From: Flavipsychrobacter sp.
GTDB taxonomy: Bacteria; Bacteroidota; Bacteroidia; Chitinophagales; Chitinophagaceae
Assembly: GCA_016786615.1 (NCBI GenBank)
Contig: JAEUVX010000014.1
Span: 103,334-167,333 of the forward strand
DNA: 64,000 bases
Direction: 5' to 3'
Part shown: piece by piece, positions 10,106-64,000 of the stretch
Layout of the letters: each line of letters begins with the position of its first letter
How positions within the stretch are numbered: position 1 is the stretch's first letter
The notes under the pieces: generated by a model
What the model was told of the DNA's origin: nothing
Seen by the model: only the letters and a program-made list of their open reading frames with translations
Databases searched by the model: none
Program-made: the position numbers and the translations under genes

Positions 10106-10136
10106 TTTGTTCAAATCATAAAAAACATTACCTTTG
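10106..10136 (+). promoter_or_regulatory. rpsU promoter (-33 TTTG, -7 TACCTTTG)
   Basis: TTTG at 10106-10109 and TACCTTTG at 10129-10136 are separated by 19 bases, matching the Bacteroidota housekeeping promoter (TTTG / TAnnTTTG). Transcription should start near 10140, giving a leader of about 30 nt that contains the Shine-Dalgarno sequence. It is the best two-part promoter seen in the window. Confidence 0.75.
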
Positions 10137-10151
10137 CCATCCCAAATGCAA

Positions 10152-10160
10152 AAAGGGGGT
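10152..10160 (+). promoter_or_regulatory. Strong extended Shine-Dalgarno of rpsU
   Basis: AAAGGGGGT ends 8 bases before the ATG. It can pair over nine positions with the anti-SD end of 16S rRNA (one G-U). Bacteroidota ribosomes normally hide the anti-SD with the help of bS21, and rpsU is known to be an exception that keeps a strong SD, consistent with bS21 autoregulation. A CATCCC in the leader could pair with the GGGGT and mask it. Confidence 0.75.
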
Positions 10161-10168
10161 ATATAATT

Positions 10169-10363
10169 ATGTTGATAATAGACTCAAAAGATTGCGAAAA
10201 CATTGACAAGGCGCTGAAAAAGTACAAAAAGAAGTATGAGAAGTCTCGTACACTGAATCAACTGCGCGAACGTCAGTCTTTCACAAAACCTTCTGTAAAA
10301 CGTCGTACAGAAGTGTTGAAAGCAATCTACCGTCAGCAAATGGCAGCAGGAAAACTGGATTAA
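10169..10363 (+). CDS. rpsU: 30S ribosomal protein bS21
   Basis: A 64-residue bS21: MLIIDSKDCENIDKALKKYKKKYEKSRTLNQLRERQSFTKPSVKRRTEVLKAIYRQQ. Length, basicity and the LRERQSFTKPSVKRR core are characteristic. It sits near the 3' end of 16S rRNA in the small subunit, and in Bacteroidota it helps sequester the anti-Shine-Dalgarno. It has its own promoter, a strong SD and a 16-bp terminator hairpin. The following genes (Xer recombinase, hibernation factor) match an order I recall from other Bacteroidota. Confidence 0.97.
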   Translation: MLIIDSKDCENIDKALKKYKKKYEKSRTLNQLRERQSFTKPSVKRRTEVLKAIYRQQMAAGKLD

Positions 10364-10400: not shown

Positions 10401-10442
10401 ACCCGGTACTGTAAATGATTATATTTACAGTACCGGGTTTTT
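10401..10442 (+). terminator. Strong terminator between rpsU and the Xer gene
   Basis: A perfect 16-bp stem (10401-10416 with 10423-10438) and a 6-base loop are followed by TTTT. The T tract ends two bases before the ATG of the recombinase gene at 10445. That gene therefore either depends on read-through or has an internal start. Confidence 0.9.
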
Positions 10443-56932: not shown

Positions 56933-57688
56933 ATGCAGTCCGATTATAATAATAACCCGACAGCTAAGGTGGTGCCTGATGCGGGGTCAAATTTAAGCAA
57001 GAAAGCGCAGGTTGCGGATATGTTTAATAACATAGCTGGCAAATACGACTTTCTGAACCATTTTTTATCGATGGGTATTGATAAGGGCTGGCGTAAAAAA
57101 GCGATTGCCGAGGTGAGCAAAGTGAACCCCAAAACTATACTGGATGTGGCTACAGGCACCGGCGACCTTGCCATTGCAGCATCGAAACTGCACCCTGAAA
57201 AAATAATAGGTGTTGATATTGCCGACCAGATGCTGGCGGTAGGCCGCAAAAAAGTGGCTGATAACAAGCTGGCACAAATGATAACCCTGCAAAACGGCGA
57301 CAGCGAGTCTATGCCATTTGCCGATAACAGCTTTGACGCTGTTACCTGTGCTTATGGTGTACGCAATTTCGAACATCTGGAAGCAGGGCTGCGGGAAATG
57401 AACAGGGTAATGCGCCCGGGGGGCAAGCTGGCCATACTGGAGTTTTCGCATCCTAAACAGTTTCCTGTAAAGCAGTTATACAAATTTTACTTCAAGTATA
57501 TATTGCCTGCCTTGGGCAAAGTAGTGTCTAAACACAGCAGGGCATATACCTACCTGCCCGAAAGTGTGATGGCCTTTCCCGAAGGAAAAGTGTTTTGCGA
57601 AACACTGCAACGATGCGGCTTTGCCGATGCCAATGCACGCCCGCTGACGTTTGGTATCACTACATTATATACAGCTACAAAAAAATAA
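56933..57688 (+). CDS. ubiE: Demethylmenaquinone methyltransferase (UbiE/MenG)
   Basis: A 251-residue SAM-dependent C-methyltransferase of quinone synthesis. The SAM motif is ILDVATGTGDLAIAASKL, and post-I and family motifs are FDAVTCAYGVRNFEHLEAGLREMNRVMRPGGKLAILEFSHPK, followed by YKFYFKYILPALGKVVSKHSRAYTYLPESVMAFPEG, which is specific for UbiE/MenG. Bacteroidota use menaquinone, so this is the MenG role. The frame starts three codons earlier at a TTG that lies inside the promoter; the ATG is preferred. Its stop codon lies inside the stem of the terminator. Confidence 0.96.
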   Translation: MQSDYNNNPTAKVVPDAGSNLSKKAQVADMFNNIAGKYDFLNHFLSMGIDKGWRKKAIAEVSKVNPKTILDVATGTGDLAIAASKLHPEKIIGVDIADQMLAVGRKKVADNKLAQMITLQNGDSESMPFADNSFDAVTCAYGVRNFEHLEAGLREMNRVMRPGGKLAILEFSHPKQFPVKQLYKFYFKYILPALGKVVSKHSRAYTYLPESVMAFPEGKVFCETLQRCGFADANARPLTFGITTLYTATKK

Positions 57689-61461: not shown

Positions 61462-61522
61462 ATAATAATATTTGTGTTGGTTTTAACACATTGGCATGAC
61501 TGTTAATGCCCGTGTGTTTTGT

Positions 61523-61552
61523 TATATTTGCCATCCCTTATACAAAGGGGGA
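61523..61552 (+). promoter_or_regulatory. gldF promoter and strong Shine-Dalgarno
   Basis: TATATTTG (61523-61530) matches TAnnTTTG and is followed by CCATCCC, then AAAGGGGGA (61544-61552), nine bases before the gldF ATG. The SD can pair over eight or nine positions with the anti-SD. The start region (TTTGCCATCCC) and SD are nearly identical to the rpsU leader, and ATCCC could mask GGGAT in a hairpin. Confidence 0.65.
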
Positions 61553-61561
61553 TATGCAATT

Positions 61562-62314
61562 ATGCGTAGTATTTTCATAAAGGAGATAAATTCTTTCTTC
61601 AGTTCTATTGTTGGTTACGTGGCTATCTATGTTTTTTTGATAGCATGCGGCTTATTTATCTGGGTGCTGCCCGATACATCTATATTGCGCCCCGATGGTT
61701 ATGCTACATTAGATAGTTTTTTTGAACTGGCTCCCTGGTTTCTGATGTTGCTGATACCTGCAGTTACCATGCGTTCATTTGCCGATGAGTTCAGAGGGGG
61801 TACGATAGAGTGGCTGCAAACAAAACCATTAAAAGATACAGACATCATACTGGGTAAATATTTCGCATCGGTTGTACTGGTATTGTTTGCATTACTGCCT
61901 ACAGTGGTATATGTGTACACAATTAGCAACCTCTCTATGGAGGGCAATACCATAGACAGTGCGGGTATTATCGGTTCATATATCGGATTGATATTTTTAG
62001 TTGCAGGTTTTACTGCTATCGGTATATTTTGTTCGTCATTGGCTAATAACCAGATTGTGGGCTTCCTCATAGCGTTGTTTGCATGTTATTTGCTATACAG
62101 CGGGTTTGAAGCACTGAGTAAAGTGCCTGCATTCATAAACGGAATAGACTATTACCTGGCAATGGTAGGTATGTCGTTTCACTACAATTCTATTAGTCGT
62201 GGGTATATTGATAGCCGCGACGTGATATATTTCCTATCAGTAGTAGTATTGTTTATTTCTCTCACACGTTTATCGCTTAACAGCCGCACAATGGATACGG
62301 CTCAGGGTTCATAA
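61562..62314 (+). CDS. gldF: Gliding motility ABC transporter permease GldF
   Basis: A 250-residue ABC-2 type permease with six membrane segments, starting RSIFIKEINSFFSSIVGYVAIYVFLIACGLFIWVLPDTSILRPDGYATLDSFFELAPWFLMLLIPAVTMRSFADEFRGGTIEWLQTKPLKDTDIILGKYFAS (key stretch TMRSFADEFRGGTIEWLQTKPL). This is the GldF family, which with GldA (ATPase) and GldG supports gliding motility in Bacteroidota. The frame extends 22 codons upstream across the SD, so the ATG at 61562 is chosen. gldG follows after three bases; gldA is not in the window. Confidence 0.92.
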   Translation: MRSIFIKEINSFFSSIVGYVAIYVFLIACGLFIWVLPDTSILRPDGYATLDSFFELAPWFLMLLIPAVTMRSFADEFRGGTIEWLQTKPLKDTDIILGKYFASVVLVLFALLPTVVYVYTISNLSMEGNTIDSAGIIGSYIGLIFLVAGFTAIGIFCSSLANNQIVGFLIALFACYLLYSGFEALSKVPAFINGIDYYLAMVGMSFHYNSISRGYIDSRDVIYFLSVVVLFISLTRLSLNSRTMDTAQGS

Positions 62315-62317
62315 TAT

Positions 62318-64000
62318 ATGGGTACAAACGCGTCTAATAAAAGAAAGTCGGGAATGAGGCTTGCCGTATTACGGATAGTTGTTTTAGCAGCTATACTGGT
62401 AGGTATTAATATGCTGGCTGCTCGTTTTCATACAGGTATAGACCTGACAAAAGAAAAGCGCTTCACACTTTCAAAACCAACTACAAAATTGCTGCGTGAA
62501 ATGAATGACGTAGCTGTGGTGACGGTTTACCTGAAAGGAAAATTTCCTGCAGGCTTTCAACGACTGGCAGATGCAACGCGCGAAAAGCTGGAGTCTTTGA
62601 GGTCTGTTTCGGGAGGAAAAGTTGTTTTTAAATTTACAGACCCGTTTGAAGGTAAGGCCGAAGAAGAAAAACTGGCTATATCAAAACAACTGAGTGAAAA
62701 AGGCATATTTGCACTGAACCTGCAAACCCAGAATGAAGATGAAGGATATGCAGAAAAATGGGTGTTCCCTTACGCATTGGTACAGTATAAAGACAAGGAA
62801 ACAGCAGTAAGTATTCTGGAAAATAATAAATGGGTAAGCCCGTGGGAAAACCTGAATAATTCACAAAACCTGCTGGAGTACAAATTTGTTGCTGCAATCA
62901 ACAGGCTCAATCAGCCAGATAAACCAAGTATAGCTTATGTGGTAGGACATGGAGAAACATTGGGCTATACTTCATACGACCTGTTGAAAACGCTGGAGGC
63001 GAATTATAAACTGGATACGTTTGATTTAACCGCCAATGTCTTTATTCCTCGCAGTTACAAAGCTATTATCATCAACAGGCCTACAACAACTTTTGATGAT
63101 AAGGAGAAATTCAAGATAGACCAGTACATAATGGAAGGAGGAAGGGTGTTATGGGCTATCGACCAGTTGTTTACTCCTATGGATAGTCTGAAACGGTCAG
63201 AGCAGTTTATTACTATGGATTACGGGCTGGAATTGGATGACATGCTTTTTAAGTATGGCGCAAGGATAAATAAAGATGTGATAGAAGACCAGCAGCAATG
63301 CCTGCCGTTGCCGATAATCGTTGGCGCACAAACAGGCAACCCGCAGATGCAGCTGAGGCCGTGGATTTTTTATCCAATATTTACACCGACATCACAGCAC
63401 CCTGTAGTGAAAAATATCAGTGCAGTAATGGGCAGGTTTGTAAGCAGTATTGATACAATTAAGAATCCGGAGGTTAGTAAAACAATACTGCTGCAGTCAT
63501 CAAAATACAGTCGCACAGAAGATTTTCCGGTGAGGGTAAGTCTTAGTTTATTGAATTTTCCCCTCACAGCCGATATGTTTAATAAGCCTTACCGCAACGC
63601 AGCGGTATTGCTTGAAGGTAAGTTCAGGTCTGTTTTTCAAAACAGGCTGGCACCTGAGTTCCTGAAGGTATTGCAAGACTCTTTGAAAAGACCATTTAAA
63701 CAATCAGTTGACTCTGCAACAAGTATGATTGTGATTGCAGATGGAAACATTATGGAAAATGACTTTTCGCAAAGTAAAGGGCCAATGGAAATAGGGTACT
63801 GGCAATATACAGAAACACGTTTTGCGAATAAAGATTTTATAATGAATTGTATTGAGTACCTGACCGACCCGAGCGGCCTGCTGGAAGCAAGGGCAAAAGA
63901 TATGCCGCTGAGGATGCTTGACAGTAAACGTGTGAAATCTGAAAAACTGACATGGCGTATTGTTAATATAGGGTTTCCTTTAGTTATAATAGGGTTGTTT
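62318..64000 (+). CDS. gldG: Gliding motility protein GldG, 5' part (cut by window end)
   Basis: The frame is open from the ATG at 62318 to the last base, 561 codons, with no stop, so the gene continues beyond the window. After a basic N terminus comes one membrane segment (LAVLRIVVLAAILVGINMLAARF). A large periplasmic region contains FHTGIDLTKEKRFTLSKPTTKLLREMNDVAVVTVYL, then PSIAYVVGHGETLGYTSYDLL and VLWAIDQLFTPMDSL, all characteristic of the GldG/ABC-associated DUF4350-like family. A second membrane segment begins at the right edge (LVIIGLF). It is the partner of GldF, three bases away. Confidence 0.9.
   Translation, partial: MGTNASNKRKSGMRLAVLRIVVLAAILVGINMLAARFHTGIDLTKEKRFTLSKPTTKLLREMNDVAVVTVYLKGKFPAGFQRLADATREKLESLRSVSGGKVVFKFTDPFEGKAEEEKLAISKQLSEKGIFALNLQTQNEDEGYAEKWVFPYALVQYKDKETAVSILENNKWVSPWENLNNSQNLLEYKFVAAINRLNQPDKPSIAYVVGHGETLGYTSYDLLKTLEANYKLDTFDLTANVFIPRSYKAIIINRPTTTFDDKEKFKIDQYIMEGGRVLWAIDQLFTPMDSLKRSEQFITMDYGLELDDMLFKYGARINKDVIEDQQQCLPLPIIVGAQTGNPQMQLRPWIFYPIFTPTSQHPVVKNISAVMGRFVSSIDTIKNPEVSKTILLQSSKYSRTEDFPVRVSLSLLNFPLTADMFNKPYRNAAVLLEGKFRSVFQNRLAPEFLKVLQDSLKRPFKQSVDSATSMIVIADGNIMENDFSQSKGPMEIGYWQYTETRFANKDFIMNCIEYLTDPSGLLEARAKDMPLRMLDSKRVKSEKLTWRIVNIGFPLVIIGLF

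Follow-up and report, generated by a model that had tools for sequence, protein, structure and literature searches.

In the Bacteroidia, ribosomal protein bS21 autoregulates its own gene, rpsU, through an extended Shine-Dalgarno (SD) sequence (McNutt et al. 2023, PMC9976891). As described in the available text of that paper, ribosomes without bS21 favour mRNAs with strong SDs, and a 7-bp AGGAGGU on tuf raised GFP expression more than 2-fold with truncated bS21, whereas AGGA had virtually no effect (PMC9976891). In the Flavobacteriales, rpsU is typically the single strong-SD gene per genome (PMC9976891), so that bS21 control has the look of a self-contained loop acting on its own gene. Weaker, lineage-dependent SDs are described on rpsR, rpsB and other ribosomal-protein genes of some Bacteroidia (rpsR, -7 to -14 kcal/mol; PMC9976891). 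The second relevant system is the Bacteroidota sigma-ABfr promoter, with the -33/-7 consensus TTTG/TANNTTTG and, in F. johnsoniae, a -7 box from -12 to -5 in the register T-12 A-11 T-8 T-7 T-6 G-5 (PMC6847099, available text). In the available text of PMC9976891 the word gliding occurs once, in a reference. The literature that we searched, which left most subscription papers and bioRxiv preprints outside, held nothing tying gldF to a Shine-Dalgarno sequence or bS21 to gliding.

Here we compare these systems with the leader of gldF, whose product is an ABC-transporter permease that we assign to the gliding machinery by its family name. This leader resembles the described rpsU system in that its SD is complementary to the 16S tail, lies 9-10 nt before the ATG and sits in a short leader (27 nt predicted here, compared to 25 nt for native F. 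johnsoniae rpsU), and in that bS21 here has Tyr54, the residue that contacts the anti-SD (ASD). It differs in the gene itself and in the helix, which has 8 contiguous bp and -11.5 kcal/mol here, compared to 9-13 bp below -13 kcal/mol in the described system; only sister species reach that grade. In its energies and its lineage dependence it is similar to the weaker SDs of the rpsR and rpsB type, but those belong to ribosomal-protein genes, whereas gldF is a permease gene.

RESULTS

The window (the whole 64-kb stretch of DNA that was analysed) lies in an assembly of 2.96 Mb in 15 contigs, and the genes and leader elements of rpsU and gldF are on its + strand. The window carries rpsU (10169..10363), which encodes bS21 (64 aa; TIGR00030 S21, E=4.3e-11) with a tyrosine at position 54, as well as gldF (61562..62314; TIGR03518 GldF, E=1.2e-91) and gldG (62318..63999; TIGR03521), which runs to the window edge. 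We rejected an alternative gldF start at 61496, proposed by the ORF tool, because the conserved promoter would then fall inside gldF and because the TIGR03518 match begins with residue 1, the Met at 61562. Among the best 80 of 410 relatives, the named ones nearest to this assembly are entered as Chitinophagaceae, Chitinophagales or 'Bacteroidetes bacterium'; 'Chitinophagaceae bacterium LGM1' (G004) and 'IBVUCB1' (G007) are examples.

The leaders of rpsU and gldF have in common TTTGCCATCCC, a GGGGG 9-10 bases 5' of the ATG, and the end AATTATG, a likeness that the first-pass annotation had described correctly to the single base. The rpsU leader reads TACCTTTG (10129-10136), TTTGCCATCCC (10133-10143), AAATGCAAAAA, GGGGG (10155-10159), then 9 bases to the ATG at 10169; that of gldF reads TATATTTG (61523-61530), TTTGCCATCCC (61527-61537), TTATACAAA, GGGGG (61547-61551), then 10 bases to the ATG at 61562. 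With no mismatch allowed, there are two copies of TTTGCCATCCC within the window. We also noted a strong inverted repeat 3' of rpsU (10401-10438; ACCCGGTACTGTAAAT/ATTTACAGTACCGGGT), likely a terminator, which recurs after rpsU in several members of the genus.

Sequence comparison shows the TTTGCC-CCC part of the likeness to be mainly the Bacteroidota -7 promoter box and its start region. The putative rpsU promoter (10106..10136; consensus from PMC6847099) has a -33-like TTTG (10106-10109), 19 bp and the -7 box TACCTTTG; the -7 box of gldF, TATATTTG, is conserved across the family. These two boxes give the TTTG of the common 11-mer, and the C-rich start region gives its CCC. By the F. johnsoniae register, transcription would start at the first C of the CCC (10141 for rpsU, 61535 for gldF), with predicted mRNA leaders of 28 nt (10141..10168) and 27 nt (61535..61561), and only the CCC of ATCCC would be transcribed, since the A and T fall at -2 and -1. 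The TAnnTTTG box is present in 14/14 gldF leaders of the genus. Of the 75 distinct leaders that the best 80 of 410 relatives provided, 69 also have it no more than 50 nt from the start (L150 and L179 were left out for short upstream DNA and L119, L129 and L151 as duplicates; L111, L112, L113, L114 and L115 are the same genomes as G009, G006, G002, G004 and G007 and are not extra evidence). By this conserved -7 box, gldF groups with the sigma-ABfr promoters, from which it differs in having no clear -33 TTTG and instead a conserved TTTAACACATT...TGAC block farther upstream. At 61479-61502 (about -83 to -60 of gldF), the block GGTTTTAACACATT....TGACTG is kept in a six-species clade and is looser in the genus; it does not resemble a -33 TTTG and could bind an activator.

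The start motif also recurs where there is no SD. In the sampled genome, a CCC lies within 9 nt after TAnnTTTG at 19 of 162 boxes upstream of genes, compared to 5 of 175 inside genes, and the base directly after the upstream boxes is C in 47%. TTTGC..CCC occurs in 17 of 715 sampled leaders, rpsU leaders without an SD also have a TTTGCC-CCC-type start, and the gldF leaders of relatives L137 and L145 carry the full TTTGCCATCCC without an SD (-4.9 kcal/mol). The first-pass annotation had remarked that part of the likeness (TTTGC..CCC) is common to other promoters in the window. As SD-less leaders of both genes carry the start motif, it does not require an SD, though the two tend to occur together. 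Among rpsU leaders, TTTGCnnTCC was found in 26/31 with a strong SD compared to 7/19 without (P = 0.0016), an association that is confounded by family membership, which may explain it; leaving out the genus, the counts were 11/16 and 7/19 (P = 0.09). In several called genes (L254, L256, L264, L265, L266, L283 and one near 56933 in the window; e.g., TATCTTTGCACCCATG), the ATG is only 5-8 bases 3' of TAnnTTTG, which suggests leaderless transcripts in this genome.

We calculated pairing energies with RNAduplex (the published criterion uses free_scan) against the family 16S tail, for which we used G014, a member of the genus, and the family, as no 16S match was found in this assembly; this Chitinophagaceae tail was applied throughout, also to other families, whose tail may differ. 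It reads GGAATACCTCCTTTTTAGA in 8 of 10 genomes with a match, including G014; G050 and one G003 contig differ, so that of the two genus members with a 16S match (G014 and G003) one has a different tail. The G003 tail (L071, contig C52; GGATCACCTCCTTTCT, compared to GGAATACCTCCTTTTT in the family) is possibly from a contaminating contig and was left out of the energy calculations. An altered ASD (CCCCC) behind the GGGGG was rejected: the core is CUCC in 14/14 tails (13 have CCUCC and G050 has UCUCC), and pairing of GGGGG thus involves one G.U.

The extended SD of rpsU, AAAAAGGGGGTAT (10150..10162), forms 13 bp with this tail, including one G.U, at -17.2 kcal/mol, and rpsU is at -15.3 to -17.8 kcal/mol in 15/15 genomes of the genus. 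The SD-like AAAGGGGG of gldF (61544..61551) forms 8 contiguous bp, including one G.U, at -11.5 kcal/mol with a bulge or -10.1 kcal/mol for the 8-mer alone. In the sister species G009, G002 and G006, the gldF leader carries AAAGGGGGTAT, which forms 11 bp at -15.3 kcal/mol and is thus of rpsU grade; elsewhere in the genus, pairing is weaker (G007, -9.1; G004, -8.0; the other eight members, -1.7 to -6.6 kcal/mol). With a generic 16S tail, the values were -12.7 for rpsU, -11.2 for gldF here and -12.6 kcal/mol for gldF of G009. An rpsU-type extended-SD leader would lie below -13 kcal/mol with 9-13 consecutive bp to the genome's own 16S tail; with the family-derived tail, rpsU here and gldF of the three sisters reach this strength, and gldF here falls short of it. 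The ASD-sequestering pocket, judged by its marker bS21 Tyr54, is found in 15/15 genomes of the genus. The AGGAGGU motif tested on tuf scores -10.6 kcal/mol by the program used here, about the value of gldF, and thus the gldF SD could respond to loss of bS21, more so in the sisters. We agree with the earlier view that the SD is the specific part of the likeness, as the G-run pairs with the usual family 16S tail and does so over 11 bp in three near species.

The background sample comprised 0.86 Mb (40 stretches plus the window), in which 715 of 719 ORF-called genes (at least 100 aa) had enough upstream DNA; rpsU, at 64 aa, was left out, gldF entered as an alternative ATG only, and ATG positions are noisy because the ORF calls are crude. 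Windows at -7 kcal/mol or below preceded first ATGs in 44 cases for the SD compared to 68 for the mock (of 715); with alternative ATGs included, the counts were 143 compared to 154 (of 1599). The weaker SD windows at first ATGs are in line with the SD depletion published for Flavobacteriales, and the gap nearly closes with alternative ATGs. At -11.5 kcal/mol or below, we found 1 SD compared to 6 mock windows at first ATGs and 10 compared to 17 once alternative ATGs, gldF among them, were included; mock windows reached -15 kcal/mol in 1/715 and 2/1599. The strongest SD window of the sample was -13.4 kcal/mol, beyond which rpsU lies, and gldF of this species does not stand out above the SD or mock background.

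This result is what would be expected if the likeness were coincidence and shared descent, that is, a common promoter start region plus a G-run that drifted into the gldF leader of one ancestor and persists without function. We consider this explanation possible but rather unlikely. The same sample bears against it, in that SD windows are weaker than mock at first ATGs, so that retention of an SD may not be neutral. Pattern searches and conservation, taken up below, also cut both ways.

A genome-wide motif search of the kind that the first-pass annotation had proposed returned rpsU and gldF only: CCATCCC-N6-14-GGGG-N4-14-ATG has these 2 matches in the 2.96 Mb genome and 0 in the reversed control. 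Across 59 genomes, TTTGCCATCCC-N5-15-GGGG-N4-14-ATG gave 8 matches in 6 genomes with zero in controls, and these were 4 rpsU (G000, which is this genome, G004, G005 and G007) and 4 gldF (G000, G002, G007 and G009) leaders, which are not independent because the species are related. In the 715 sampled leaders GGGGG occurs in 1 and GGGG in 9, and we estimate that about 0.08 genes (GGGGG) or about 0.7 genes (GGGG) would have both G-run and start motif by chance genome-wide. By itself, the SD occurs no more often in the genome than chance would give, with 43 matches to AAGGRGG-N4-12-ATG compared to 47 in the control and 5 compared to 5 for AAAGGGGG-N4-12-ATG; the further AAAGGGGG-N-ATG matches L003-L005 were rejected as gene starts, having frames of 7, 4 and 7 aa.

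In the genus, the excess is small: AAAGGRGGTA-N3-12-ATG has 42 matches in 15 genomes, compared to 32 in the reversed control. Among 30 of these with loci inspected, those judged to be at gene starts were 10 rpsU, three gldF and possibly one ORF in G008. Such near-control counts favour coincidence. Against it, rpsU and gldF are the only matches common to G002, G006 and G009; G002 and G009 have 2 matches each, rpsU and gldF only (controls, 2 and 1), and G006 has three more.

Conservation of the SD is uneven across the genus. Among its 14 gldF genes, GGGGG is present in 4, GGGG in 1 and GG in 1, and an SD-like stretch is absent in 8, as coincidence would allow; G012 has no gldF match, and of the 59 genomes two are without a gldF and two without an rpsU match. 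Comparison of gldF leaders in relatives, which had been suggested from the first reading, sustains the -7 box (14/14) and leaves GGGGG in only 4/14. On GldF plus partial GldG, the six species group together as a clade (support 100/100); four of them have an identical GGGGG although their gldF 4-fold sites are 44-61% identical. That three sisters keep 11 contiguous bp despite this divergence argues against coincidence. The AATTATG end is not kept in the sister gldF leaders. Over the six species, mean pairwise identity is 0.91 for the spacer before the G-run compared to 0.88 for the SD, and 6 of 21 other ORF leaders (ORFs unfiltered) are 84-97% identical between this genome and G009; thus, conservation marks the leader as a whole as constrained, not the SD in particular. 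That other leaders can be equally conserved fits coincidence, as does the commonness of the promoter-start CCC. The idea of a general bS21 switch for motility found no support in this comparison: an SD-like stretch is missing from 8/14 gldF genes of the genus and weakened in 2, and of the 75 distinct leaders given by the best 80 of 410 relatives, only 3 pair at -13 kcal/mol or below.

Strong rpsU pairing has a wider distribution, at -13 kcal/mol or below in 15/15 genomes of the genus, 16/20 others of the family and 0/15 of other families (8 of 58 rpsU matches were left out). With the family tail, rpsU was weaker than this in G019 (L055), G020 (L054), G021 (L061), G028 (L302) and the 15 other-family genomes, with borderline values in G053 (-12.8 kcal/mol) and G020 (-11.8 kcal/mol). 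If each genome's own 16S tail agrees, the autoregulatory element would seem to have been lost naturally, or to be absent, in these members of a single order.

Finally, we examined predicted leader folding. The gldF leader is predicted to form a 5' hairpin, CCCUU-N-AAGGG (61535..61551), and a UAUGCA/UGCGUA hairpin over the start codon, which together would mask the SD and the start codon. The latter, UAUGCA-N4-UGCGUA (61553-61568 in the window), could form in G000, G009, G002 and G006, where it would enclose the start codon of gldF and hinder initiation; by eye, a GCA a few bases 5' of ATGC recurs in gldF of the genus. The 5' hairpin raises the idea that the G-run is kept as its 3' arm, stabilising the mRNA or restraining gldF translation, and not as an SD. 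We regard this as improbable: four of the five SD G's are predicted to be only 0-42% unpaired in this species and G009, folding z is -0.4 to -2.6 in the six-species clade (below shuffles), and by eye the G004 5' arm CCUUU matches its shortened AAAGG arm, as CCUUU/AAAGG does in G006, but single-species P values are 0.015 to 0.31, structure is not general, with a mean z of -0.21 over 56 distinct gldF leaders outside the clade that have a -7 box, the 5' arm is promoter-start sequence that is common for other reasons, and the same prediction has three of the five rpsU SD G's mostly paired too, so that masking is not peculiar to gldF.

For rpsU there is likewise little sign of such a device. Over 47 rpsU leaders, folding does not exceed that of shuffles (mean z 0.03), and CCC does not track the G-run of the SD (15/22 compared to 3/9, P = 0.11; 3/7 compared to 3/9 when the genus is omitted), a result that argues against pairing of CCC with the SD. 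The earlier proposal that ATCCC pairs with the SD in both genes was thus not supported, and we rejected a leader hairpin as a device common to rpsU and gldF, although the TTTGCnnTCC association with the SD in rpsU leaders, described above, points the other way.

DISCUSSION

The explanation that we prefer, and to which we would give an even chance of being right on sequence comparison, combines a promoter likeness with an SD specific to one subclade that has a plausible, graded response to bS21-free ribosomes. On this proposal, the likeness has two sources, both of them shown by comparison. First, rpsU and gldF have the housekeeping promoter that is usual in Bacteroidota, with a TAnnTTTG -7 box and a C-rich region at the start, and this accounts for TTTGCC..CCC. 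Second, the gldF leader of one six-species subclade bears a G-rich stretch, complementary to the ASD and absent in the rest of the genus, which spans 8 bp in this species and 11 bp (AAAGGGGGTAT) in three of its sisters and is spaced from the ATG as SDs normally are. Ribosomes with a free 16S tail, that is, without bS21, would then initiate somewhat better on gldFG mRNA in these species, as on rpsU. The gldFG link would thus have branched off the bS21 circuit recently and in this lineage only, with graded strength, and would not amount to a conserved switch for motility.

In favour of this proposal, all 8 full-motif matches in 59 genomes are rpsU or gldF, the sisters have an 11-bp SD, clade support is 100/100 and Tyr54 is present in 15/15. 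Against it, the -11.5 kcal/mol of gldF is within background here, the clade spreads from -8 to -15.3 kcal/mol, a hairpin is predicted over the SD, the AAAGGRGGTA pattern is found 42 times compared to 32 in the control, conservation of the spacer matches that of the SD, and the tail is taken from relatives.

A stronger version would make gldFG a second true target of bS21-free ribosomes in the subclade, such that bS21 shortage, or replacement by a phage bS21, raises the gldFG operon together with rpsU; we consider this version doubtful. If it were true, these species would have a two-gene 'free anti-SD' regulon (rpsU and gldFG) that arose by SD gain in a phylum otherwise selecting against SDs. 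The natural series on gldF (-8, -9.1, -11.5 and -15.3 kcal/mol) is suited to testing for a strength threshold. A cluster of Chitinophagaceae species in which a gene outside the ribosome has a second SD of rpsU grade would illustrate how a specialised-ribosome circuit can recruit new targets.
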